The notes beneath the pieces were generated by a model. It saw only the letters and a list, made by a program, of their open reading frames with translations. It searched no databases and was not told the DNA's origin. Position numbers and translations under genes: made by a program. Positions 25,416 through 34,563 of a stretch of 34,563 bases of DNA are shown here, piece by piece. Numbering within the stretch: the first letter of the stretch is position 1; every line of letters begins with the position of its first letter. Origin of the DNA: Lachnospiraceae bacterium (GTDB lineage: Bacteria; Bacillota; Clostridia; Lachnospirales; Lachnospiraceae); the NCBI GenBank assembly GCA_017539565.1, contig JAFYCS010000063.1, forward strand, positions 1-34,563, read 5' to 3'.

Positions 25416-27377
25416 TCAGTGAAGGTCTCCGTTAATGGCATCCCAGACGCCGCTGCCTTCCAGCCCCAGCTTCCAGCCTGCCATGCTCTTTATGCCTTTA
25501 TCCTTCATTACACCGGTACGCGCATGATAAGCAGATACATCCTCAAGCCATATCTGATAAAGTGCGGTACCGTCTCTGTACTCGGCATAGTACTGGCATT
25601 CATCCTCCAGCCACTGTGTCTCTAGAGAACGGTTGTTGACCCATTCCCAGGCGGTATCCATACCCAGGGCATCCGATGTCACACTGCCGGCCTCCGTCTT
25701 CCACAAACGTGTATAGAAAGGCATACCGCAAACCAGCTTCTCCGCCGGAACGCTGTATTTCTGCAGGCAATCGGTGATACCTTTTTCAACAAATCCTATT
25801 GATGCCACGCTGCCGGCTTCCGAACCCGCATAGTGCTCATCATATGCCATAAGTACCACATAATCCGTAACATATCCAAGCTCCTCCAGATCGAAGCCCT
25901 TATTGCTCTCAGTCGGAGGGGGTACATCTACGGAAAGACTCAGGCCGTTCTTATGTGCCTCTATAGACAGCTCACGGAGGAACTGTACATAATGAATGCC
26001 GGTCTTAGACAGCTTAGAATCCGTAAGCTCGACGTCCATATTGATACCGTCAATACCAAGTTCCAGTGCATCTGCGATCAGGCTTTCGATCAAGCCTGCA
26101 CGGCGTTCTGATGATGAGAACAGAGCGTATTCATCAAAATCCGCTTCCATATTCTCTACCAGAGCCCATACCTGATAGCCCTTTGCATGCGCTTTCTCAA
26201 CATAGGACTTACGTCCTATCTGTGTATATGCACCTTCCTCATCCTTTAAGAAGAACCAGGTGGGGCTGACGACATTCATTCCGGTGGCAGCTTCGGTCAA
26301 TGCTTCCATACCGCTGCCGTCATCTGCATCAAATATCTGATGCCAGCCTAATATTACCTGCTCCATAGGCGGCGTCATATTATAATCCTTTTCGGGATGA
26401 TATGCCCCGGTAGCTGCCGGAAGTGTACGTGTTGTGGACTCATTTAAGGTTTTGTTCTCTACAAAGCCCACAAAAGCATCTTCTGTCTTAACCTTGCTCC
26501 AGGTCTCCATCGTCTCCAGGATCTCTACTTCTTCTTCCTTATTAACCTGACGCAACACCTCACTCTTGATACCGCCGCGGATACGAAGCTGGGTATCATT
26601 TTTCAGAGTGGCAACGCGGTCCTCTTCCCATTTGGTATATACCTGAACGCGGTTGATATGATCGTCACTCGTATACAGATTACAGTCAAAATCTGCAAAT
26701 AAGCGTACATAATCTGCTGCTATATAGAAGGTCCCGTCTTTACCGTAACGTGAAACGGGAACGGAAAGGCTCTTAAGTTCACCATCCATAGTATAGGTCT
26801 TTTCTCCTATAACATTGCTTATGACCTGTGTGGATGTGGAATAAAGGAGCTTGTTCTCATCCGCATTAACATAAAAGCGTTTGGTAAACAGGTCACGTAC
26901 CGTATCTATGGAAAAATAGACCGCTCCGTCCAAAAGCTTTGCATGCGCGGCGATACGCTCATCCTGTAAAATTATTGCAACATCTTCATTATTAAAAAGC
27001 TGGAAGTAATCCTTTAAGTTGGCGGGATCCATTCCGTAAGAATACTTTTCCGGATAGAGCAGTGATAAAAGCCAGCGGCCGCCTAACTCTTCGCGGTTAG
27101 CTATACTCTCTTTGATACGGTCGCCAAAAGCCACCATGATAACGATCGCAATAAGTATGACAGCTATGATAACAGCCAGAACACTCTGCCCTAAACGCTT
27201 GAGTACTTCCCTGTTGGCACGCTTGGCCTGCCTGCCGCGTCTCCTTCTGCGCTTTTTGGAGCCGCTGCTGCGCTTTTTCCTGCGCGGTGCAGGTCTTTGC
27301 TCATATCCGTTATCGATATATTGCTCATCGGTGAAACCGGTATCGATTATTTCGTTTGTATCCCCGATCTTTCCCAT
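25416..27377 (-). CDS. Membrane-anchored GH18 family hydrolase with SH3-like domain
   Basis: A 653-residue protein. An acidic start is followed by a very basic stretch (about 31-64, with RRKKRSSGSKKRRRRRGRQ) and a single transmembrane helix at 65-85, so the bulk lies outside the membrane. Next is a copper-amine-oxidase-N-like stalk region (about 130-245), an SH3-like segment (about 255-310) and a GH18 catalytic barrel (about 335-650). The catalytic motif DGINMDVE (443-450) retains the acid E450, of the DxxxDxE form. Relatives such as YaaH, YdhD and CwlX-type proteins act on peptidoglycan or chitin-like glycans. The gene has its own promoter at 27415-27443 and leads the operon. Substrate is unknown, with wall glycan the best guess. 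Confidence 0.88.
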   Translation of the reverse strand: MGKIGDTNEIIDTGFTDEQYIDNGYEQRPAPRRKKRSSGSKKRRRRRGRQAKRANREVLKRLGQSVLAVIIAVILIAIVIMVAFGDRIKESIANREELGGRWLLSLLYPEKYSYGMDPANLKDYFQLFNNEDVAIILQDERIAAHAKLLDGAVYFSIDTVRDLFTKRFYVNADENKLLYSTSTQVISNVIGEKTYTMDGELKSLSVPVSRYGKDGTFYIAADYVRLFADFDCNLYTSDDHINRVQVYTKWEEDRVATLKNDTQLRIRGGIKSEVLRQVNKEEEVEILETMETWSKVKTEDAFVGFVENKTLNESTTRTLPAATGAYHPEKDYNMTPPMEQVILGWHQIFDADDGSGMEALTEAATGMNVVSPTWFFLKDEEGAYTQIGRKSYVEKAHAKGYQVWALVENMEADFDEYALFSSSERRAGLIESLIADALELGIDGINMDVELTDSKLSKTGIHYVQFLRELSIEAHKNGLSLSVDVPPPTESNKGFDLEELGYVTDYVVLMAYDEHYAGSEAGSVASIGFVEKGITDCLQKYSVPAEKLVCGMPFYTRLWKTEAGSVTSDALGMDTAWEWVNNRSLETQWLEDECQYYAEYRDGTALYQIWLEDVSAYHARTGVMKDKGIKSMAGWKLGLEGSGVWDAINGDLH

Positions 27378-27455: not shown

Positions 27456-28685
27456 CTACATATAACTGAATCTTACCCTGCCTATACCAATTTCATCTTC
27501 TTTTTCCAGCATCACCTGTTCCTCTGCTTCAAGCTGCACTCCGTTGATAAATGTACCGTTGGTCGAATGACAGTCCTGTATGTATGCATGTCCGTTCTGC
27601 ATGAAGATCCTGGCATGTATACGTGATACCGAGCTGTCATTAATGGGCAGATCCACACAGTTCTTAACCTTTCCTATAGTATAGGGAAAATTGCTTATCC
27701 TGTATTGTTTTCCTTTACTTTTCTCTACCAGGAGGTTTTCAACAGGCGCATCCGTTTGTCCTATGAACACAGTCTTTCCGTAATCACCATCGCTGTCATT
27801 TACGGGTTCCATATCGGAAAACGCCGCACTGAAATCCGGTATACCAATGTCTTGATCATCCTCATGCTCCTCTCTTGCAGGCTTCCTGCTATTCAATACT
27901 TTAACTGTATCCTTTTCGCGATCCTTCTTTGCCGTCTTCTTTTCTGTTTTTTTCTGCGGATCCTTTGACCTACCAAAGATACGTGTAAACAGTCCCTGCT
28001 TTCTCTCATTATCTTCTTCCTCCTCTTCATTAATAAATATATCCGTTTGTTCCCTTATCCGTGGCATCACAGATGTCTCCCTGTTTATGATCCTGTCATC
28101 TGAACAGATCTCCACGCTGTCTGCAGAGACCGGCTGCTCTGTCAGCATCTTTTCCAGATCCCCCAAAACACAGTTTTCGTTCTTAACCGCCTTATACAGA
28201 CGATAGGTCCACATTGCCGCTGCCGCATCGTTCTGATCTATATGTTCCATAAGATACTCCGTCAATGCCAGCAGCCTCTCCTGCATACTCGCACAATCCC
28301 AGGGTATGAATAAAAGACAGGGCTTAAGGTTCTCCGGGTCTACAAAAAGATACTCAGGGGCCAATACCAGAGCCCCTTCACTAAGCATATATTCCCTTAT
28401 GGACTTAAATACATCTATGATCCCCCTTAACATGGCCGCAGCATCGGAGCGTTTTATCTCCTTATGATCAAAAATACGGCTCAAAGGCTGCATGGAGCTT
28501 ATTTCATAATAAATCTGCTCCCTTCCTTCATTCATTCTTTTTGATGCCCTCAGCAGACCCGGTACATTATTCTCCAGTATCATCTCCAGCCTGTAATCCT
28601 GATAGTCTTCATCCGGCAGCTCGGCAACCAGATAGTTGTGATCCATGCTCTTTCTGTACTGCAATTTGAGCTCTTTATCATCCAT
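27456..28685 (-). CDS. FHA-domain protein with DUF6382-type N-terminus
   Basis: A 409-residue cytoplasmic protein. The N-terminal part (about 1-170) resembles the DUF6382 domain, which is usually attached to FHA domains in Clostridia. The middle (about 180-325) is charged and disordered-looking, with an acidic stretch EEEEEDNERK and a Lys-rich KKTEKKTAKKD block. The C-terminal FHA domain, about 328-409, contains SVSRIHARI and DCHSTNGTFING, the phosphothreonine-binding signature. It probably binds a phosphorylated partner and regulates or scaffolds the pilus machinery encoded upstream; no Ser/Thr kinase is in this window. The start has a GGGAGGTTAGG site and follows the TadE-like gene by three bases, so it belongs to the same transcript. 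Confidence 0.85.
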   Translation of the reverse strand: MDDKELKLQYRKSMDHNYLVAELPDEDYQDYRLEMILENNVPGLLRASKRMNEGREQIYYEISSMQPLSRIFDHKEIKRSDAAAMLRGIIDVFKSIREYMLSEGALVLAPEYLFVDPENLKPCLLFIPWDCASMQERLLALTEYLMEHIDQNDAAAAMWTYRLYKAVKNENCVLGDLEKMLTEQPVSADSVEICSDDRIINRETSVMPRIREQTDIFINEEEEEDNERKQGLFTRIFGRSKDPQKKTEKKTAKKDREKDTVKVLNSRKPAREEHEDDQDIGIPDFSAAFSDMEPVNDSDGDYGKTVFIGQTDAPVENLLVEKSKGKQYRISNFPYTIGKVKNCVDLPINDSSVSRIHARIFMQNGHAYIQDCHSTNGTFINGVQLEAEEQVMLEKEDEIGIGRVRFSYM

Positions 28686-28688
28686 TTC

Positions 28689-29123
28689 CTAACCTCCCGT
28701 AACATTCCTCATGGTCCGTACAGTCATCGCTTCCTTAAGCCTGGGTGTCTGTCTTGTTAGATTTATGCTCCAGTCAAAAAGTTTTACATCCCCAAAGCCC
28801 GGCAGCACCGGTGCACGCATTCTGCCGTTGTATACGGCTTTTACCGTAAGCAGGTCAACACTCACTTCAACAGCAGCCTCTTCCATCATTACCATCCTGG
28901 CATTCAGCAGCTCCACCGCCTTATCCTTCGCAAGACCGGTTATTTTTTCATTACTCGCTTCCGCCTGCCTGGCCGCCTGGATCACAGCCACCGACAATGC
29001 ATAATCTGCCGCCGTCCTGTTATATAGGAATATCCCGCTCCACACTACCATCAGGCTGATCATCAGGCAGACCGGCAATATAATGACGGCCTCTATCGTC
29101 ATCATCGCTCCCACACGTTTCAC
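28689..29123 (-). CDS. TadE-like pseudopilin
   Basis: A 144-residue small membrane protein. The N-terminus MKRVGAMMTIEAVIILPVCLMIS has the short basic leader, the T-x-E-A glutamate motif (MTIEAV) and a hydrophobic helix of the TadE/TadF/TadG pseudopilin group, cleaved by the Tad prepilin peptidase. The rest is a soluble domain of about 105 residues without a known fold. It probably caps or primes the Flp pilus. The start is GTG at 29123, which overlaps the stop of the prepilin peptidase; ATG codons at residues 7 and 8 have their own GGGAG site and are an alternative. Its function is inferred from layout and locus. Confidence 0.78.
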   Translation of the reverse strand: MKRVGAMMTIEAVIILPVCLMISLMVVWSGIFLYNRTAADYALSVAVIQAARQAEASNEKITGLAKDKAVELLNARMVMMEEAAVEVSVDLLTVKAVYNGRMRAPVLPGFGDVKLFDWSINLTRQTPRLKEAMTVRTMRNVTGG

Positions 29124-29555
29124 TCAACCACCCCCATTCAAATAAACACGCAGCTGAAAGAGCATAAATCCTGCCAGCAGAAAAGGAATGAACGGCAGCG
29201 TATCCTTTCGTCCCGCACGTTTTGTAGTGATCAGAAATATCGATACTACAGCAGACAGCAGAAGTGCATACATCATCAGTTCCCCTCCCTGCCTGAGACC
29301 ATACATCGCCCCCAGCAGAAGGAGCAATACGGCATCTGCGCTGCCGATACAGCCGCTCAGCTTTCCCACCGCCAGCATAGCTCCGCCCGGGATCAGTCCA
29401 AGCAGCATCTCGCTTCTGTCAGTGACGAAGATGATCGTTATCACGGCACTCCCTGCTGCTGCCGCTGCAAGGAACAATACCGGTACGCTTTTCTTCCTTA
29501 TATCCATAACACTGCCGCTAAGCAGCATAGCGATCGTCCAGATCTCTTTTACCAA
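29124..29555 (-). CDS. Prepilin peptidase, TadV/CpaA type (A24)
   Basis: A 143-residue protein with about five hydrophobic segments and almost no soluble part, the layout of short TadV/CpaA peptidases that remove the leader of Flp pilin and TadE. The first catalytic aspartate is in SVMDIRKKSVP. The second is in the sequence IGSADAVLLL, in place of the usual GxGD motif; the aspartate stays but the second glycine is alanine. The start is probably TTG at 29555, nine bases after GGAGG; an upstream GTG at 29561 would sit only about three bases from that site. Stop and start spacing with the neighbours indicate coupled translation. The locus context makes the function likely. Confidence 0.78.
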   Translation of the reverse strand: MVKEIWTIAMLLSGSVMDIRKKSVPVLFLAAAAAGSAVITIIFVTDRSEMLLGLIPGGAMLAVGKLSGCIGSADAVLLLLLGAMYGLRQGGELMMYALLLSAVVSIFLITTKRAGRKDTLPFIPFLLAGFMLFQLRVYLNGGG

Positions 29556-29561
29556 AATCAC

Positions 29562-30200
29562 TCACCTCCTTGTCATGGCACAGCGGCTGCACAGCCTGCG
29601 GCTCCCGACCTGCGATAAAGGTATCTCATATATAGTCCGTTTAAGCCCGCTGCATGTCAGCGATGAATGATAACGGTCACCGTCATCCGTTATATAAACC
29701 GTCCCGCTGCCACCACCGCATATCTCACACCTTTTATACTTTCCGCCTCCGGAATTTCTCGCATCCCCTACCCGATCACTGTTTATAGGCCTTATGCTCA
29801 GATCCAGATGGGTACAGCTCCGGCTCAGATGGTATACCGTACCGTTCTCCGCAACATAGACTATGGGATCCTCCATACTCCCCCCATTACTATCGGTTGC
29901 ACTTCCCAGTTTATATCCGGTCCATGAATGTGCCCTTGCCCTGCACATCAATATCTGCGTCGGTATGCCAAACACATTGCACCGCGGCTCAAAAATATAT
30001 GGTTCCACTATATCTATCACTGTCTCCACAGGCGAAAGTAACGCGGCACTCTTCACCGTTCTGCTCAGATCGAAATCTTTTTTCATCGTGCCCTGCATCA
30101 TTTCAAGGATCGACAGCAGGCTTATAAAAAAGAACAGATACAAAGGCAGGACTACCGAAGCCTCCAGTGTGAGGCTTCCTTTATTTCTTTTTCTAAGCAT
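29562..30200 (-). CDS. TadE-like protein with a duplicated Cys/His module
   Basis: A 212-residue protein. The N-terminus MLRKRNKGSLTLEASVVLPLYLFFF has a basic leader, the TLEAS pseudopilin motif and a hydrophobic helix at about 15-33. Unlike its neighbours the C-terminal half holds two copies of a Cys/His module: H124, C129, C158, C161 and H178, C183, C204, C207. Each copy reads VY-x6-YH-x4-C-x2-L ... C-x2-C, resembling the small zinc-like modules attached to some competence and nuclease proteins. Metal binding is inference. It overlaps the preceding gene by 8 bases, has a GAGGAGG site, and ends adjacent to the prepilin peptidase. Confidence 0.78.
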   Translation of the reverse strand: MLRKRNKGSLTLEASVVLPLYLFFFISLLSILEMMQGTMKKDFDLSRTVKSAALLSPVETVIDIVEPYIFEPRCNVFGIPTQILMCRARAHSWTGYKLGSATDSNGGSMEDPIVYVAENGTVYHLSRSCTHLDLSIRPINSDRVGDARNSGGGKYKRCEICGGGSGTVYITDDGDRYHSSLTCSGLKRTIYEIPLSQVGSRRLCSRCAMTRR

Positions 30201-31647
30201 AACGGAACCTCCTCTCCATGAAGAAACTGTATCCGTACCAGCTGTTAAATATCATCTGCACCGTAGCTCCGGCAACACAATTATCCAGACAGAAATCCGC
30301 ATATCCGCTAACCTGCCTTATATCCATCTCTACTATATCCATGCAGCGCTGAGTCTTCAGTTCAAGAGGTTCAAGGTAGAAGATCATTCTCAGATAATCC
30401 GCGTAGTCCTGTCCTTCCCCGCCACCCTCTCCCGGATCAAATTGCATTAATAATGCTTTATCAAGAGTTAAGTTCCAATCTTCCGCTTTCTTTATCAAAG
30501 GTACCCTTCCACCCCTGAAAAGTCTTTTTAAGTCAAATATGGTCTCGGCATATATCCATGCACAGCATATAAGGATCTCAAACGCTTCAGCTGCCTCCGG
30601 AAGGGCTATCACAAAAGCCAGCGCTTCGGCTAATCCTTTAGCCTGCTGTCTCTTGTTATCATCCATATAAAAAGCCATGGTATTTGATCCTCCCCTTATC
30701 GCCATTAGCTCCATGGCCGTAAAGCTCAGATTATCTTTATCATTATCTTTTCCGCCTATGATATATTCAGCTTCATAGCTCAGGCGGCTGCCTTCTTTTA
30801 CATTCCTGTAATTACCGCATTTTTCCAGTATGTATTCGCTGAAAAGTATCTGTTCGGTGATACTGTCATGTGCTTCCCAGTCCTCGCACATCCCATTACC
30901 CACAACCAGATCACGATGCGAGGCATAACAGGACAGATCTGCCGATGCGCCCGATATCTCACCGTCTACTACCTGCGATAACAGAACACCTTTACTCGCC
31001 GCCACTACAGCCGATGCAGGATCGTCCTTCTTTGGCGGTGTCCATTCGATCTCGTTTCCCTCTTCATCGTATTCCGGCTCGGGCTCGGGATATATTATGG
31101 CATCAACCTCATCCTGGGCATCCTGAAGATTCTGTGTAACATCAACATTATGGAATTCCTCCCCGGCAGACGTCTCCACCATATCCTGTATATCAGCTAC
31201 ATAGGCCAGACCATACTTTTCAAGCATATAGCTCATAGCCATATATCTGAATACCGCACCTTCTTCATCCGTTGCCCTGTGAACTGCCGTAGCTTCCGAC
31301 GAATAGAGACTGAGTTTTGTATGATCCCTGTTTCCCGGTACCGGCAGCCCCTTATCGGGTTTGATATTATATTCAAGATATCCGTCCAGGTGATCGAGCA
31401 TCTTATCCACCGATCCCTGCCCTCCGTCATACATCGTGTCCACAAACAACAGATCATACCTGTCCATAAGTGCCTTGTTATATTCGGCAAGAACGGAGTC
31501 CATGGAAAGATCCGCTGCACACTCCAATCTCAGTTTTATGGCATTGACTCTGGCCGACTCTATCATTGTGACCAACAGCGGGATCAGAACCGCCATCATC
31601 AGCGCCAGATATACACTGATCGCTCCTCTTTCTTTTTTCATATTCAT
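30193..31647 (-). CDS. TadG-like DUF5702 protein
   Basis: A 484-residue protein. The N-terminus MNMKKERGAISVYLALMMAVLIPLLVTMIESAR has a basic start and hydrophobic helix, then a large soluble extracytoplasmic domain. The layout (long, poorly conserved, with RGAISVYLALMMAV) matches the DUF5702 proteins that take the TadG position in Lachnospiraceae pilus loci. The phrase RYDLLFVDTMYDGG and acidic Pro-Glu stretch PEPEPEYDEEGNEIEW (about 185-200) are visible. Function is unknown; pseudopilin or adhesin scaffold are reasonable guesses. GGAAGGAG precedes two nearby ATG codons (31647 and 31641), and I kept the first. Flp1 is 21 bases upstream. Confidence 0.78.
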   Translation of the reverse strand: MNMKKERGAISVYLALMMAVLIPLLVTMIESARVNAIKLRLECAADLSMDSVLAEYNKALMDRYDLLFVDTMYDGGQGSVDKMLDHLDGYLEYNIKPDKGLPVPGNRDHTKLSLYSSEATAVHRATDEEGAVFRYMAMSYMLEKYGLAYVADIQDMVETSAGEEFHNVDVTQNLQDAQDEVDAIIYPEPEPEYDEEGNEIEWTPPKKDDPASAVVAASKGVLLSQVVDGEISGASADLSCYASHRDLVVGNGMCEDWEAHDSITEQILFSEYILEKCGNYRNVKEGSRLSYEAEYIIGGKDNDKDNLSFTAMELMAIRGGSNTMAFYMDDNKRQQAKGLAEALAFVIALPEAAEAFEILICCAWIYAETIFDLKRLFRGGRVPLIKKAEDWNLTLDKALLMQFDPGEGGGEGQDYADYLRMIFYLEPLELKTQRCMDIVEMDIRQVSGYADFCLDNCVAGATVQMIFNSWYGYSFFMERRFRYA

Positions 31648-31668
31648 GGACTCCTTCCTTACATTTAC

Positions 31669-31851
31669 TTACCGGGCTACTTCAGCCGATTTTGTTACTA
31701 TGCTGTCAAATAAGTCATTCACGATCTCTGTTATCTGCTTTTTGAATATGAGCACCAATCCGACCAGGACAACGATTATGAGTATCACCTCGACCGTTCC
31801 CATACCTGCATCATCCTGCACATATTCCTTCAGTCCTTTCCATAGTGACAT
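31669..31851 (-). CDS. Flp1-type type IVb pilin
   Basis: A 60-residue protein that fits Flp1/TadZ-locus pilins: leader MSLWKGLKEYVQDDAG, then the hydrophobic core GMGTVEVILIIVVLVGLVLIF with the +5 glutamate after the likely cleavage site (about G16-M17), followed by a short tail of the form KKQITEIVNDLFDSI. It is the likely major subunit of the pilus built by the TadA/TadB/TadC machine and processed by the prepilin peptidase. A strong AGGAGGTAGCAGAC site precedes the ATG, which suggests it is the most translated gene of the locus. It sits between tadC and the DUF5702 gene with 48 and 21 base gaps. Confidence 0.92.
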   Translation of the reverse strand: MSLWKGLKEYVQDDAGMGTVEVILIIVVLVGLVLIFKKQITEIVNDLFDSIVTKSAEVAR

Positions 31852-31899
31852 GTCTGCTACCTCCTTTCTCCGCTGAATATTTCCCCCGTCCCCGTCTCC

Positions 31900-33339
31900 T
31901 TATATGGAAACAAAAGCCGGCACAATGATCACTACCATTACGATAGCCAGCATCATTATCATGGGCAGCAAAAGCCTGGTTCCTGCTTCTTCCCCCATAC
32001 GTCTGGCTTCCGCCTTTCTCTCCTGCAGGGCATCTTTGCACTCACTGCGCATGGTGCTAAGAAAGCCTGCCGCCCCCAGCCTGGTATTCTGCTCAAGCAG
32101 TGATACCAGCTTCACATATTTCTGAAGCCTGCAGCGCTTGGCAAAGTGCTGGTATGCCTGCAACTCGCTTACACCGCTCTCCATCTCCCTGCAGGCAAGC
32201 AGCATTTCTTCATATACATAACGTGTTATCCCTTTCTGTCTGTATTCATCCGTCATCTTCCTCCAGGCCATACGCGTACTCATCCCCGCACCTATATATA
32301 AGGAAAGCTTGCTTACCATCTCCGGATAATCCTGCTTAAGCTGCTCATCCCTTTCCTTTATCTTCTTATCCAGGTCTTTATCCCTGCCCCAGTAGACCGC
32401 AGCCGCAGCTACAATTATCATCACCGACAATATGACGGCACTGTTCTTTTTTCTCTCCTGCCATTTCACAGCCACACCGTCTATCTCCGAAGGGAGCTTA
32501 TACGTCACTTCACTGCGGCTCTTATCCGAGGCCGTACTTAACGCATCTTCTATACTCCGCTTAAGCCTGTCCGCACTGCTCAGTTCCTCCGGATACGCCA
32601 TAACGGAGAAACTGTACAGTTCTTCATGATCTTCATAGCTTATGTGTGCCGTGATCTCACATATGCTGCCATCCGCCGGTATATCTTCTTTTATCTCACC
32701 CATCCGGTTGAACACTTCCCTGTTCCCGAAATCCCATTCCACATAAAAGGGATAACCTTTTATCTCACTTACAGGATTCAGGTCCCTGCAAACATGATCC
32801 GGACTCTCATTCTTTCCAAGAACCGCAGACTCAAGTCTTTTTCTGAAGTCCGGCAGCATCTCTTCGATCTCCGCTTCCGTATACACCCTCTCATCTACCG
32901 CCACATCTACGGTACTGACTTCACCGTCTATCTCCGCATCCAGCTCCACACTGTATCTGCCCTTACCGTATTCCCGGCGCATTAAGCTCCCGTCTTCCCC
33001 AAGGACAGGTTCCTGCGCTTCACTGTATGTGATCAGAAGCGTAAATATCATCCCCACCGTGACCAGCAGAAAACACAGTCCGCATTTTTTAATAAACAGT
33101 ATCCGCGCAGAACGTCTCGCGTCCGCAGCAGGTTCCAATACCCTGAACCTTTCCTCATTTTGCAAAAAAACTCTTTTTCTCATGCTGCTGTCACGCAGCA
33201 CTCTCTCCAGCCATACTGCCATCCGGTAAAACGGCCTTGTAACTGCCGAAGCCTCACACTCCCCGGGCACCTTCTCTTTTGCCGATATGATACCCAGTAT
33301 TCCCATAAGTACGACCACAACTATCGCAGGATAAAACAT
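31900..33339 (-). CDS. tadC: TadC-like inner membrane protein with large extracytoplasmic insertion
   Basis: A 479-residue membrane protein of the type II secretion F family. Transmembrane segments lie at about residues 2-19, 85-104, 300-317 and 455-477. The T2SSF cytoplasmic domain is about 330-450 (MVSKLSLYIGAGMSTRMAWRKM). Between the second and third helices is an extra domain of about 190 residues on the opposite side of the membrane from the T2SSF part. TadC from other phyla is near 300 residues and lacks it. The ATG at 33339 is chosen because GGGGAGG lies nine bases upstream; a TTG at 33360 would have no site. It pairs with tadB as the pilus platform and overlaps nothing but follows tadB closely. 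Confidence 0.85.
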   Translation of the reverse strand: MFYPAIVVVVLMGILGIISAKEKVPGECEASAVTRPFYRMAVWLERVLRDSSMRKRVFLQNEERFRVLEPAADARRSARILFIKKCGLCFLLVTVGMIFTLLITYSEAQEPVLGEDGSLMRREYGKGRYSVELDAEIDGEVSTVDVAVDERVYTEAEIEEMLPDFRKRLESAVLGKNESPDHVCRDLNPVSEIKGYPFYVEWDFGNREVFNRMGEIKEDIPADGSICEITAHISYEDHEELYSFSVMAYPEELSSADRLKRSIEDALSTASDKSRSEVTYKLPSEIDGVAVKWQERKKNSAVILSVMIIVAAAAVYWGRDKDLDKKIKERDEQLKQDYPEMVSKLSLYIGAGMSTRMAWRKMTDEYRQKGITRYVYEEMLLACREMESGVSELQAYQHFAKRCRLQKYVKLVSLLEQNTRLGAAGFLSTMRSECKDALQERKAEARRMGEEAGTRLLLPMIMMLAIVMVVIIVPAFVSI

Positions 33340-33356
33340 CACTCTCACCTCCCCGT

Positions 33357-34166
33357 TCAATAAGCTATATCAAGTATCTTCCCCGCCAGCAGATAAGCTC
33401 CGATATAAACCGCCAGCATCGCACTCATCACCGCAACACCAAATACACTGTGATACAGAGGTGCAAAGAATCCCGGTGACGTCGTGTCTATATATAGGAT
33501 TATTCCGAATGGCACCAGATCCATGATCCCCTGCTCCATCTTCTTCGCGGATATCTGAGTAGTTATCTCACGCTGTACTTCGATCCGGTCGCTTATGAGG
33601 TCCGCGCTGTTACGCAATATCCCCGGCAAATCTCCGCCGCTTCGCTTTGCTATACGGAATACTTCCGCAAAATCCGTAATATCCTGCACATGGGCCCTTA
33701 CGGCCATATCATCCAGCGCATCTTCAATATTCACATTATTCTTAAGCTTCCTGGCTATCAGTTTGAGCTCACAACAGATCATTGAATCGCTCCCGTACAA
33801 AAGACGCATGTCTTCATATGCATGTATAAACGAATTTTCGATGGAATATCCTGCCTGGAGCCCCGCTATTACAGCGTGCATCATTTCCCTGAACTGCAGC
33901 ATCAGTTCGTGCCTTCGTTTTTCCACTATCTTTTTGCGTTCCCTTGCCATGTAGAAGAACAAGCCCGGCAGCGTGATAAAGAATGCAGCCATAGAACGAT
34001 AGAATACGTATGCTATCAGCATAAGTATCGCTAAGCCTTTAATAAATGCGGCCGTCCACTCTGCCGGGCTCATAAGATATTCTTCATAATCCTGCTGCCC
34101 GGAGTTTTTCTTCGTGCTCCAGCGGATTCCTTTTCTTAAGGCTTCCAAGTATCCTGCCCTGCTCAT
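33357..34166 (-). CDS. tadB: TadB-like inner membrane platform protein
   Basis: A 269-residue T2SSF family protein. Helices occur at about 38-55 and 58-72, then the T2SSF domain (LMLQFREMMHAVIAGLQAGYSIENSFIHAYEDM, about 88-120, and RSGGDLPGILRNSADLI, about 175-191), then two closing helices at about 215-235 and 240-262. TadB and TadC together form the cytoplasmic-face platform that the TadA ATPase drives. ATG at 34166 has a GAGGAGGG site; a longer frame begins at 34199. It overlaps the tadA 3' end by about 83 bases, an unusually long overlap. Its TGA at 33357-33359 is followed by the tadC start within 20 bases. Confidence 0.9.
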   Translation of the reverse strand: MSRAGYLEALRKGIRWSTKKNSGQQDYEEYLMSPAEWTAAFIKGLAILMLIAYVFYRSMAAFFITLPGLFFYMARERKKIVEKRRHELMLQFREMMHAVIAGLQAGYSIENSFIHAYEDMRLLYGSDSMICCELKLIARKLKNNVNIEDALDDMAVRAHVQDITDFAEVFRIAKRSGGDLPGILRNSADLISDRIEVQREITTQISAKKMEQGIMDLVPFGIILYIDTTSPGFFAPLYHSVFGVAVMSAMLAVYIGAYLLAGKILDIAY

Positions 34167-34563
34167 CTTCACCCTCCTCTTCAAATTCATACAGAACATT
34201 GGTCTCTATAACGTCATCTTTATAACCCAGTATCTCCACAACCTGCAGTACCTTACGGCTCTTATCCCGCAGTCTGCCAAGATGTACTATCACATCTATG
34301 CCGCTCGCCAGCTGTCCCCTTATGGCCGAAAGAGGCAGGTCCATCCCCATCAGTATCATGGTCTCCAGACGTGAAAGCATGTCTTCGGCGCTATTGGCAT
34401 GTCCCGTGCTGAGACTCCCGTCATGACCGGTGTTCATAGCCTGCACCATATCAAGCGCTTCACTCCCTCTCACCTCTCCGACCACGATCCTGTCCGGCCT
34501 CATGCGAAGACTGGACTTGATCAGGTCGCGCATAGTGATCTCTTTACAGCCCTCTACATTGGC
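34084..34563 (-). CDS. tadA: TadA/CpaF secretion ATPase, C-terminal part (5' end off window)
   Basis: The frame is open to the right edge, and the 159 visible residues begin with ANVEGCKEITMRDLIKSSLRMRPDRIVVGEVRG. This is the C-terminal half of the TadA/CpaF type II/IV secretion ATPase that powers Flp pilus assembly. The Walker B block RIVVGEVRGSEALDMVQAMNTGHDGSLSTGHAN, with the GEVRG and GSLSTGHAN phrases, is diagnostic. The Walker A motif is outside the window. The tail EEEGEDEQGRILGSLKKRNPLEHEEKL is charged. Its 3' end overlaps tadB by about 83 bases. Confidence 0.93.
   Translation of the reverse strand, partial: ANVEGCKEITMRDLIKSSLRMRPDRIVVGEVRGSEALDMVQAMNTGHDGSLSTGHANSAEDMLSRLETMILMGMDLPLSAIRGQLASGIDVIVHLGRLRDKSRKVLQVVEILGYKDDVIETNVLYEFEEEGEDEQGRILGSLKKRNPLEHEEKLRAAGL

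Follow-up and report, generated by a model that had tools for sequence, protein, structure and literature searches.

Lachnospiraceae are among the commonest bacteria of the gut and rumen but, to our knowledge, little is understood of how they attach to surfaces. What kind of fiber does a pilus locus from one of them encode, and what sits at its tip? We addressed this question in a 34,563-nucleotide stretch of DNA from a Lachnospiraceae bacterium (GenBank JAFYCS010000063.1; this whole stretch is "the window"), which is contig C38 of a 3.37-Mb, 120-contig assembly. The locus is a type IVc (Tad/Flp) pilus operon without secretin, and we place it in the Flp-like subtype of Tad pili, as one whose tip is a new variant. 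The explanation we favor, at a probability of roughly two in three, is a Tad pilus with a tip capped by a DUF5702 protein and bearing Ada-type modules, two prepilin peptidases, a TadC protein with an aBig (atrophied bacterial immunoglobulin) domain, and control through an FHA protein. Published work is cited by PMC number.

A Tad operon and its core machine

Nine frames, all on the minus strand, lie where a first-pass annotation made from the sequence alone had placed them, and its claim of a Flp1-type Tad locus was borne out by Pfam matches to T2SSE, T2SSF, Flp1_like and TadE. The right end of the window cuts through tadA. The first-pass annotation had advised looking beyond this end for tadZ and the rest of tadA, and both were located: the last 141 bases of the window recur identically at the end of another contig of the assembly, C120, which carries the missing end of the operon, with the 5′ part of tadA in a continuing frame, a tadZ-like gene and prepilin peptidase 1. 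The names of these last two genes come from their place, their motifs and their likeness to the genes of relatives, not from Pfam, and the two contigs were read apart, not joined. In order of transcription, the operon reads peptidase 1, tadZ, tadA, tadB, tadC, flp1, DUF5702, a TadE-like gene with Cys/His modules (Cys/His TadE), peptidase 2, a second TadE-like gene (TadE2) and DUF6382-FHA. The absence of secretin noted by the first-pass annotation also held, with no match to PF00263 in the bacterium's own genome in a search that gave matches in 6 of 14 control genomes; secretin loss is described for monoderm Tad systems (PMC6668835).

The core comprises a TadA-type ATPase and a paired TadB/TadC platform. 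The window holds the 3′ part of tadA, a CpaF-type motor ATPase (34084..34563; T2SSE, E = 3.4e-26), and tadB (33357..34199; T2SSF, E = 6.8e-9), whose listed start is the first ATG and overlaps tadA; the true start may lie inside. The second platform gene, tadC (31900..33360), encodes a protein with a large insert, and its T2SSF match is below the cut-off (E = 1.2e-3; 19.3 versus 25.2 bits); all 31 TadC proteins of alignment A3 (31 of 33 sequences) match T2SSF at E ≤ 0.1. The major pilin gene, flp1 (31669..31851; Flp1_like, E = 1.8e-21), encodes a small Flp pilin with a prepilin leader ending in Gly, Glu at position +5, and Val at +6 in place of the canonical Flp Tyr. Flp-like pilins that lack Tyr at +6 have been known from Gram-positive bacteria since 2011 (Imam 2011; PMC3244431), and we therefore filed the locus under the Flp-like subtype. 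TadE-like minor pilins and TadV-type prepilin peptidase complete the set, the peptidase being present twice.

DUF5702, a candidate tip cap without Glu5

The DUF5702 gene (30193..31647; PF18960, E = 4.5e-75) encodes a pilin-like protein with a pilin leader and helix but no Glu at +5. This residue is Phe, Tyr or Trp in 104 of 121 members of the DUF5702 family, including that of the window, and Glu in none of the 121. Elsewhere, Glu occupies +5 in 96 of 109 Flp1, 89 of 116 Cys/His TadE and 104 of 118 TadE2 proteins, and most of the exceptions listed are proteins that the pattern failed to match. An earlier, cruder pattern, which left 56 of the 121 DUF5702 proteins unmatched and gave one Glu, was superseded by this finer one. 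The tip complex of type 4 filaments is capped by a subunit lacking Glu5 (PMC10191384); thus, with an aromatic residue in place of Glu5, DUF5702 fits a tip cap.

An AlphaFold2 model of DUF5702, with a predicted local distance difference test score (pLDDT) of 81.0, has a first helix of 52 residues and a helical region between strands. GspK has a large helical insert between its beta parts. DUF5702 would share this layout with GspK/PilK-type caps (PMC10191384), as it shares their lack of Glu5 and proposed tip position. Fold searches with the DUF5702 and Cys/His pilin models returned no trustworthy match; neither GspK nor the Ada domain was among the rows listed, nor was any sequence match between DUF5702 and GspK/PilK, which is uninformative either way. 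Profile searches of the PDB with alignments A1, A5 and A4 (27 of 42 sequences for A4) gave nothing useful, and a plasmid search for DUF5702 gave no match.

Unbroken DUF5702 frames span 458 to more than 1,200 residues, and in some families the domain contains additional internal sequence. Near positions 201-220, such sequence breaks the profile match in families f10, f17 and f18. It is possible that this is a variable tip domain.

Tandem Cys/His modules on a TadE-like pilin

The gene next in order (29562..30200) encodes the Cys/His TadE, recognized from alignment A1 and a structure model. This minor pilin of 212 residues has a prepilin leader with Glu at +5. Besides a pilin-like body it has two modules in tandem, each with the pattern YH-x4-C ... 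C-x2-C and placed by alignment and motif at 29709..29861 (first) and 29571..29699 (second). The window protein has no Pfam match of its own; 29 of 32 aligned family members match TadE at E ≤ 1. Its model has a pLDDT of 89.2, with residues 111-210 at 90-97 by blocks of ten; the fold comparison was taken up by the long helix (about residues 1-98), and the modules lay outside its reach.

We searched samples of 147 genomes of the order, 149 of the phylum and 60 of the family. With a profile built from 62 modules, the tandem pair was found in 46 of 63 DUF5702-positive and 0 of 84 DUF5702-negative genomes of the order, with DUF5702 no more than 6 kb away for 45 of the 46 pairs. Five more positive genomes have one module match near DUF5702, and 13 have none. 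The pair is present in 58 of the 60 genomes drawn from the family. At the level of loci, we examined the window and 40 others, which represent 39 of the 62 further positive genomes; a two-module protein is encoded in 33 of these 41 and missing from eight (L038, L039, L046, L047, L048, L049, L050 and L053); none of the other frames in these loci (3,630 open frames) is a second two-module frame. The nearest neighbor of a module shares its position in 29 of 31 first and 27 of 31 second modules, which indicates that the duplication is old.

The His and three Cys ligands are invariant in 62 of 62 modules of alignment A5, all chosen by a motif that contains them. Alignment A1 holds 32 of 36 sequences picked for having modules (L047, L048 and L053, which have none, were omitted, as was L057, very like L056), and A5 holds 62 of 64 (those of L073 were omitted), so that ligand invariance in both is partly a matter of choice. 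Matches to Ada_Zn_binding (PF02805) are weak in 5 of 32 Cys/His pilins (best 2.3e-4), with no hit in the window pilin, and DUF6233 matches weakly in 6 of 32 (best 5.5e-4). The module of L118, reached by the same profile, exceeds the Ada_Zn_binding cut-off (38.9 versus 23 bits).

The Ada metal-binding domain is a DNA-repair domain, and its first ligand pair is a Cys pair. The window modules resemble it (PF02805) in a C-x2-C near the end, in two ligands upstream and through the profile link via L118, but their first pair is H-x4-C, and they are duplicated and sit on a pilin-like protein. Sequence evidence thus supports, without proving, their assignment as Ada-type modules that probably bind zinc. 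Single copies found with the profile stand at the C-terminus of other, very different proteins (16 fetched); Pfam scans of ten gave four with a metallo-beta-lactamase fold, two DNA/RNA non-specific endonucleases, two SH3 proteins, one YQBQ-like protein and one weak choline-binding match. The carriers with metallo-beta-lactamase fold or endonuclease domains are those of L113, L115, L117, L118, L121 and L126.

Two prepilin peptidases

Prepilin peptidase 2 (29124..29561; Peptidase_A24, E = 1.6e-5, just below the cut-off) and TadE2 (28689..29123; TadE, E = 7.2e-5) follow. The GSAD motif of this peptidase, in place of GxGD, had been singled out as non-standard; it is indeed a minority form but not unique to the window. 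GxAD occurs in 16 of 113 second peptidases, namely those of the window, its ten nearest named relatives (L129-L138) and five others, with the catalytic Asp retained. The upstream and downstream enzymes differ further in motif: a Lys two places past the motif Asp (GxGDxK, AxGDxK or the like) is found in 59 of 68 upstream peptidases and 1 of 113 downstream ones. This difference suggests a division of labor in which peptidase 2 would act on the tip pilins and peptidase 1 on the shaft.

A separable cassette for the proposed tip

We read DUF5702, the Cys/His TadE, peptidase 2 and TadE2 as a separable cassette for the putative tip, usually with its own prepilin peptidase. This reading comes from f18, a family other than that of the window, where the block is mostly unlinked and the core loci read have no tip gene. 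Counting Flp1 and DUF5702 as unlinked when they were on separate contigs or had more than 8 kb between them, we found this state in 16 of 18 DUF5702-positive genomes of f18 versus 2 of 45 in other families. Six stand-alone f18 cassettes (L037, L043, L044, L045, L051 and L052) have DUF5702, Cys/His TadE and TadE2, four of them with peptidase 2, and none has tadZ-A-B-C or flp1 within the stretch fetched. Conversely, five f18 core loci (L213-L217) carry tadZ-A-B-C-flp1-FHA and no tip gene, with peptidase 1 in two. Genomes G107, G113 and G131 each consist of a single contig; there, as on one contig of G146, hundreds of kilobases or more separate the core site from the tip site.

Two observations weigh against this picture by weakening single steps of it: draft assemblies are themselves split, and no downstream peptidase was seen in 5 of 116 loci (L045, L052, L070, L151 and L150, the last cut by the end of its contig). 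They lower our confidence in the whole slightly, and the missing peptidases leave the division of labor between the two enzymes a matter of suggestion.

Genome G018, also a single contig, encodes DUF5702 at two places: L046 is a complete Tad locus that lacks the modules, and L045 is a stand-alone cassette that has them.

Distribution and conservation

DUF5702 was found in 63 of the 147 genomes of the order, including 19 of 19 from the window's own family, and in 8 of the 149 of the phylum, two of them from that family. Flp1_like matches occur in 65 of the 147 and exceed the cut-off in 61, which answers the concern that the Flp1 frame might be a random small frame. All but one of the 63 DUF5702-positive genomes have an Flp1_like match, and the three matches in DUF5702-negative genomes are below the cut-off.

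We also scanned named genomes with the Cys/His pilin and kept the best 80 of 204 relatives, loci thus chosen by module pattern. They are labeled Lachnospiraceae or with genera that include Butyrivibrio, Eisenbergiella, Anaerocolumna, Sellimonas and Faecalimonas, a few only Clostridia or uncultured; the nearest, L129, is 83% identical, labeled Lachnospiraceae and from goat omasum. The first-pass annotation had set failure of co-conservation beforehand as a refuting test, and the gene set is co-conserved: 74 of the 80 loci have the exact gene order, unbroken to the reach of the contig. In the other six, a gene is split into two frames (L163, L165 and L171), an over-long TadE2 frame starts before the peptidase (L137), peptidase 2 is missing (L151), or tadC and flp1 are (L201). 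By gene, DUF5702 was present in 80, TadE2 in 78, a peptidase-2-type gene in 78, FHA in 76, Flp1 in 75, TadC in 75, TadB in 73, TadA in 68 and TadZ in 66. Ratios of nonsynonymous to synonymous substitution (dN/dS) against the two nearest relatives, L129 and L130, were about 0.05-0.17 wherever computable, with dS saturated (>1); these low values indicate that the genes are kept by selection.

Three parts that the first-pass annotation had called non-standard, the TadC insertion, the duplicated Cys/His module and the FHA protein, are instead the rule in this family. That annotation is partly supported overall; it overlooked the Ada likeness, the missing Glu5 of DUF5702, the two peptidase motifs and the separability of the tip genes.

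The insert in TadC

The TadC insert (32452..33015) lies between stretches 84-115 and 304-327 of the protein, hydrophobic by their hydrophobicity profile. A match to aBig_2 (PF20578) at E ≤ 0.1 was obtained in 15 of the 31 TadC proteins of A3 (best 1.5e-11), and the window copy matches weakly (E = 0.13; 12.5 bits versus a cut-off of 27). Judged by these matches, the insert is probably an aBig-type domain that would lie outside the membrane. TadC has at least 400 residues in 28 of 33 loci of a first set and 73 of 76 frames of a second. The insert bears on how a one-membrane Tad machine is held together, a question raised in PMC6916266.

Proposed assembly and alternative explanations

In the explanation we favor, the locus would build the type IVc (Tad) pilus of a one-membrane bacterium, with TadA driving TadB/TadC to stack Flp1 into a shaft. 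DUF5702, the Cys/His TadE and TadE2 would form a priming complex that becomes the pilus tip, with the Glu5-less DUF5702 as the putative outermost cap and the tandem Ada-type modules, probably zinc-stabilized, displayed beside it as binding modules. Peptidase 2 would process mainly the tip pilins, and peptidase 1, encoded upstream of tadZ, would process Flp1. The aBig-like domain of TadC, outside the membrane and under the wall, may help to hold the machine and guide the fiber, standing in for alignment and outer-membrane parts that the system lacks, and DUF6382-FHA may link Ser/Thr phosphorylation to the motor or the platform.

DUF5702 and the two TadE-like proteins could instead form a fixed base structure across the thick wall. 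Sheared pili of Micrococcus luteus did not yield TadE, TadE2 or TadF, and the authors proposed a structure at the base or across the wall (PMC4322843). However, DUF5702 lacks Glu5, like capping pilins, and the genes of the block can lie apart from those of the machine, in keeping with an exchangeable tip; we consider a base role unlikely. A different doubt, compatible with a tip position, concerns the modules, which might be disulfide- or zinc-stapled folds that lend stability and have no ligand of their own. They are small, single copies end very different proteins, and Myxococcus tips have many predicted intramolecular disulfides (PMC12075869). The invariant His fits a metal better than disulfides, but the motif by which the modules were picked included that His, and we hold a pure stability role to be somewhat unlikely.

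As to what such a tip might do, a role as an adhesin or host signal for mucus, plant fiber or epithelium is compatible with a capped, module-bearing tip, and we regard it as possible, if short of even odds. Many of the best 80 relatives come from gut or rumen, the TadE of Bifidobacterium breve stimulates gut epithelium (PMC6916266), and the size range and internal extra sequence of DUF5702 would suit it; Pfam, PDB profile and fold searches recognized no ligand-binding domain in the DUF5702 alignment, which is weak evidence against it. In a DNA-uptake pilus, the tip modules would bind extracellular DNA and retraction would pass it to ComEA/ComEC. The likeness to the metal-binding domain of Ada would agree with this, as would the other module carriers, at least four of the 16 having a metallo-beta-lactamase fold and two being endonucleases, and Flp pili take part in DNA uptake by M. 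luteus (PMC6370729, PMC4322843). The bacterium's own genome has ComEC, but so do 145 of the 147 genomes of the order, with or without the pilus, so that no linkage to the pilus is visible; this makes the same test uninformative on whether Tad replaces ComG (ComG and ComEA were not searched for separately). Other module carriers are SH3, choline-binding-like and YQBQ-like proteins, and 13 N_methyl pilin matches in the bacterium's own genome could serve uptake instead. We consider DNA uptake quite unlikely. Equally doubtful is a broader proposal, that in nearly all Lachnospiraceae an exchangeable Ada-zinc tip binds extracellular nucleic acid or a phosphate-rich polymer, that Tad and not ComG is the capture fiber, and that the cassette can be re-sited and pair with other Tad cores.

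The N_methyl-type matches just mentioned, 12 of the 13 over the cut-off, lie on contigs C18, C61, C63, C77 and C2 of the bacterium's genome (G000). Two fall in frames of 1,169 and 1,938 residues, and the set probably represents another type IV pilus system, with giant pilins.

Relation to known systems

Published Gram-positive Tad/Flp loci (PMC3244431; Bifidobacterium breve; Micrococcus luteus) share tadZ, tadA, tadB, tadC, a Flp-like pilin, TadE-like minor pilins, a TadV-type peptidase and the lack of a secretin with ours. The window locus adds DUF5702, Ada-type modules on TadE, a second peptidase, the Ig-like TadC insert and DUF6382-FHA, for which the published loci were not checked. In Myxococcus, TadE/F/G-like pilins make up the Tad tips, and three tip clusters exist in addition to that of the kil cluster (PMC12075869). 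The KilL/M/N tip of Myxococcus xanthus in that report resembles the proposed tip in being a unit of three minor pilins, one of them large, and in the presence of several tip clusters per genome. DUF5702 is, however, a different large protein, the Ada-type modules sit on a TadE-like protein, and the likeness does not come from sequence comparison. Among the literature matches listed, mostly titles and starts of abstracts, none describes the Cys/His TadE, DUF5702 or a split tip cassette. A pilus carried by nearly the whole family, with a tip that is conserved and may bind metal, is a defined target for testing, and the natural split between core and tip genes makes it possible to ask directly by genetics how a Tad machine distinguishes the shaft from the tip.

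DUF6382-FHA and neighboring genes

The last gene of the operon (27456..28685) encodes a DUF6382-FHA protein, with DUF6382 at about 28170-28658 (E = 1.2e-45) and FHA at about 27480-27683 (E = 6.5e-17), which we propose as a regulator of the pilus machine. A relative is present at all five split core loci of f18, and the five f6 proteins in alignment A2 (31 of 34 sequences) all lack the FHA part. TseJ/TsfJ of type VII secretion variants e and f also have DUF6382 N-terminal and FHA C-terminal, with PPM phosphatases near some loci (PMC11217815), but the window protein belongs to a Tad locus. Comparison of DUF6382 with a single EssB-type pseudokinase gave an hhalign probability of 0.6%, and a PDB profile search gave four weak, unrelated-looking rows (best 0.069). 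Only one full EssB was found in the 149 phylum genomes and no EssB match in the bacterium's own genome, where other type VII genes were not searched for.

With 10 of the flanking frames scanned, we found in other families a PP2C phosphatase beside the FHA gene (L042:8375-9154 and L046:4552-5313) or one gene further (L048:14159-14923), and a Ser/Thr kinase near it (L038:12111-13796); these neighbors fit control by phosphorylation.

Adjoining the FHA gene on the minus strand is a GH18 glycosidase with an SH3 domain (25416-27377). We rejected it as part of the system: among the loci searched, it stands beside FHA only in the window and in L129. It has its own promoter-like site (27443-27415), of a kind rarer than in shuffles. 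In four Tad loci of the family, the DUF6382-FHA gene is followed by a rhomboid protease (L055:5003-5602, L058:10377-11003, L061:13677-14297 and L063:13589-14182).

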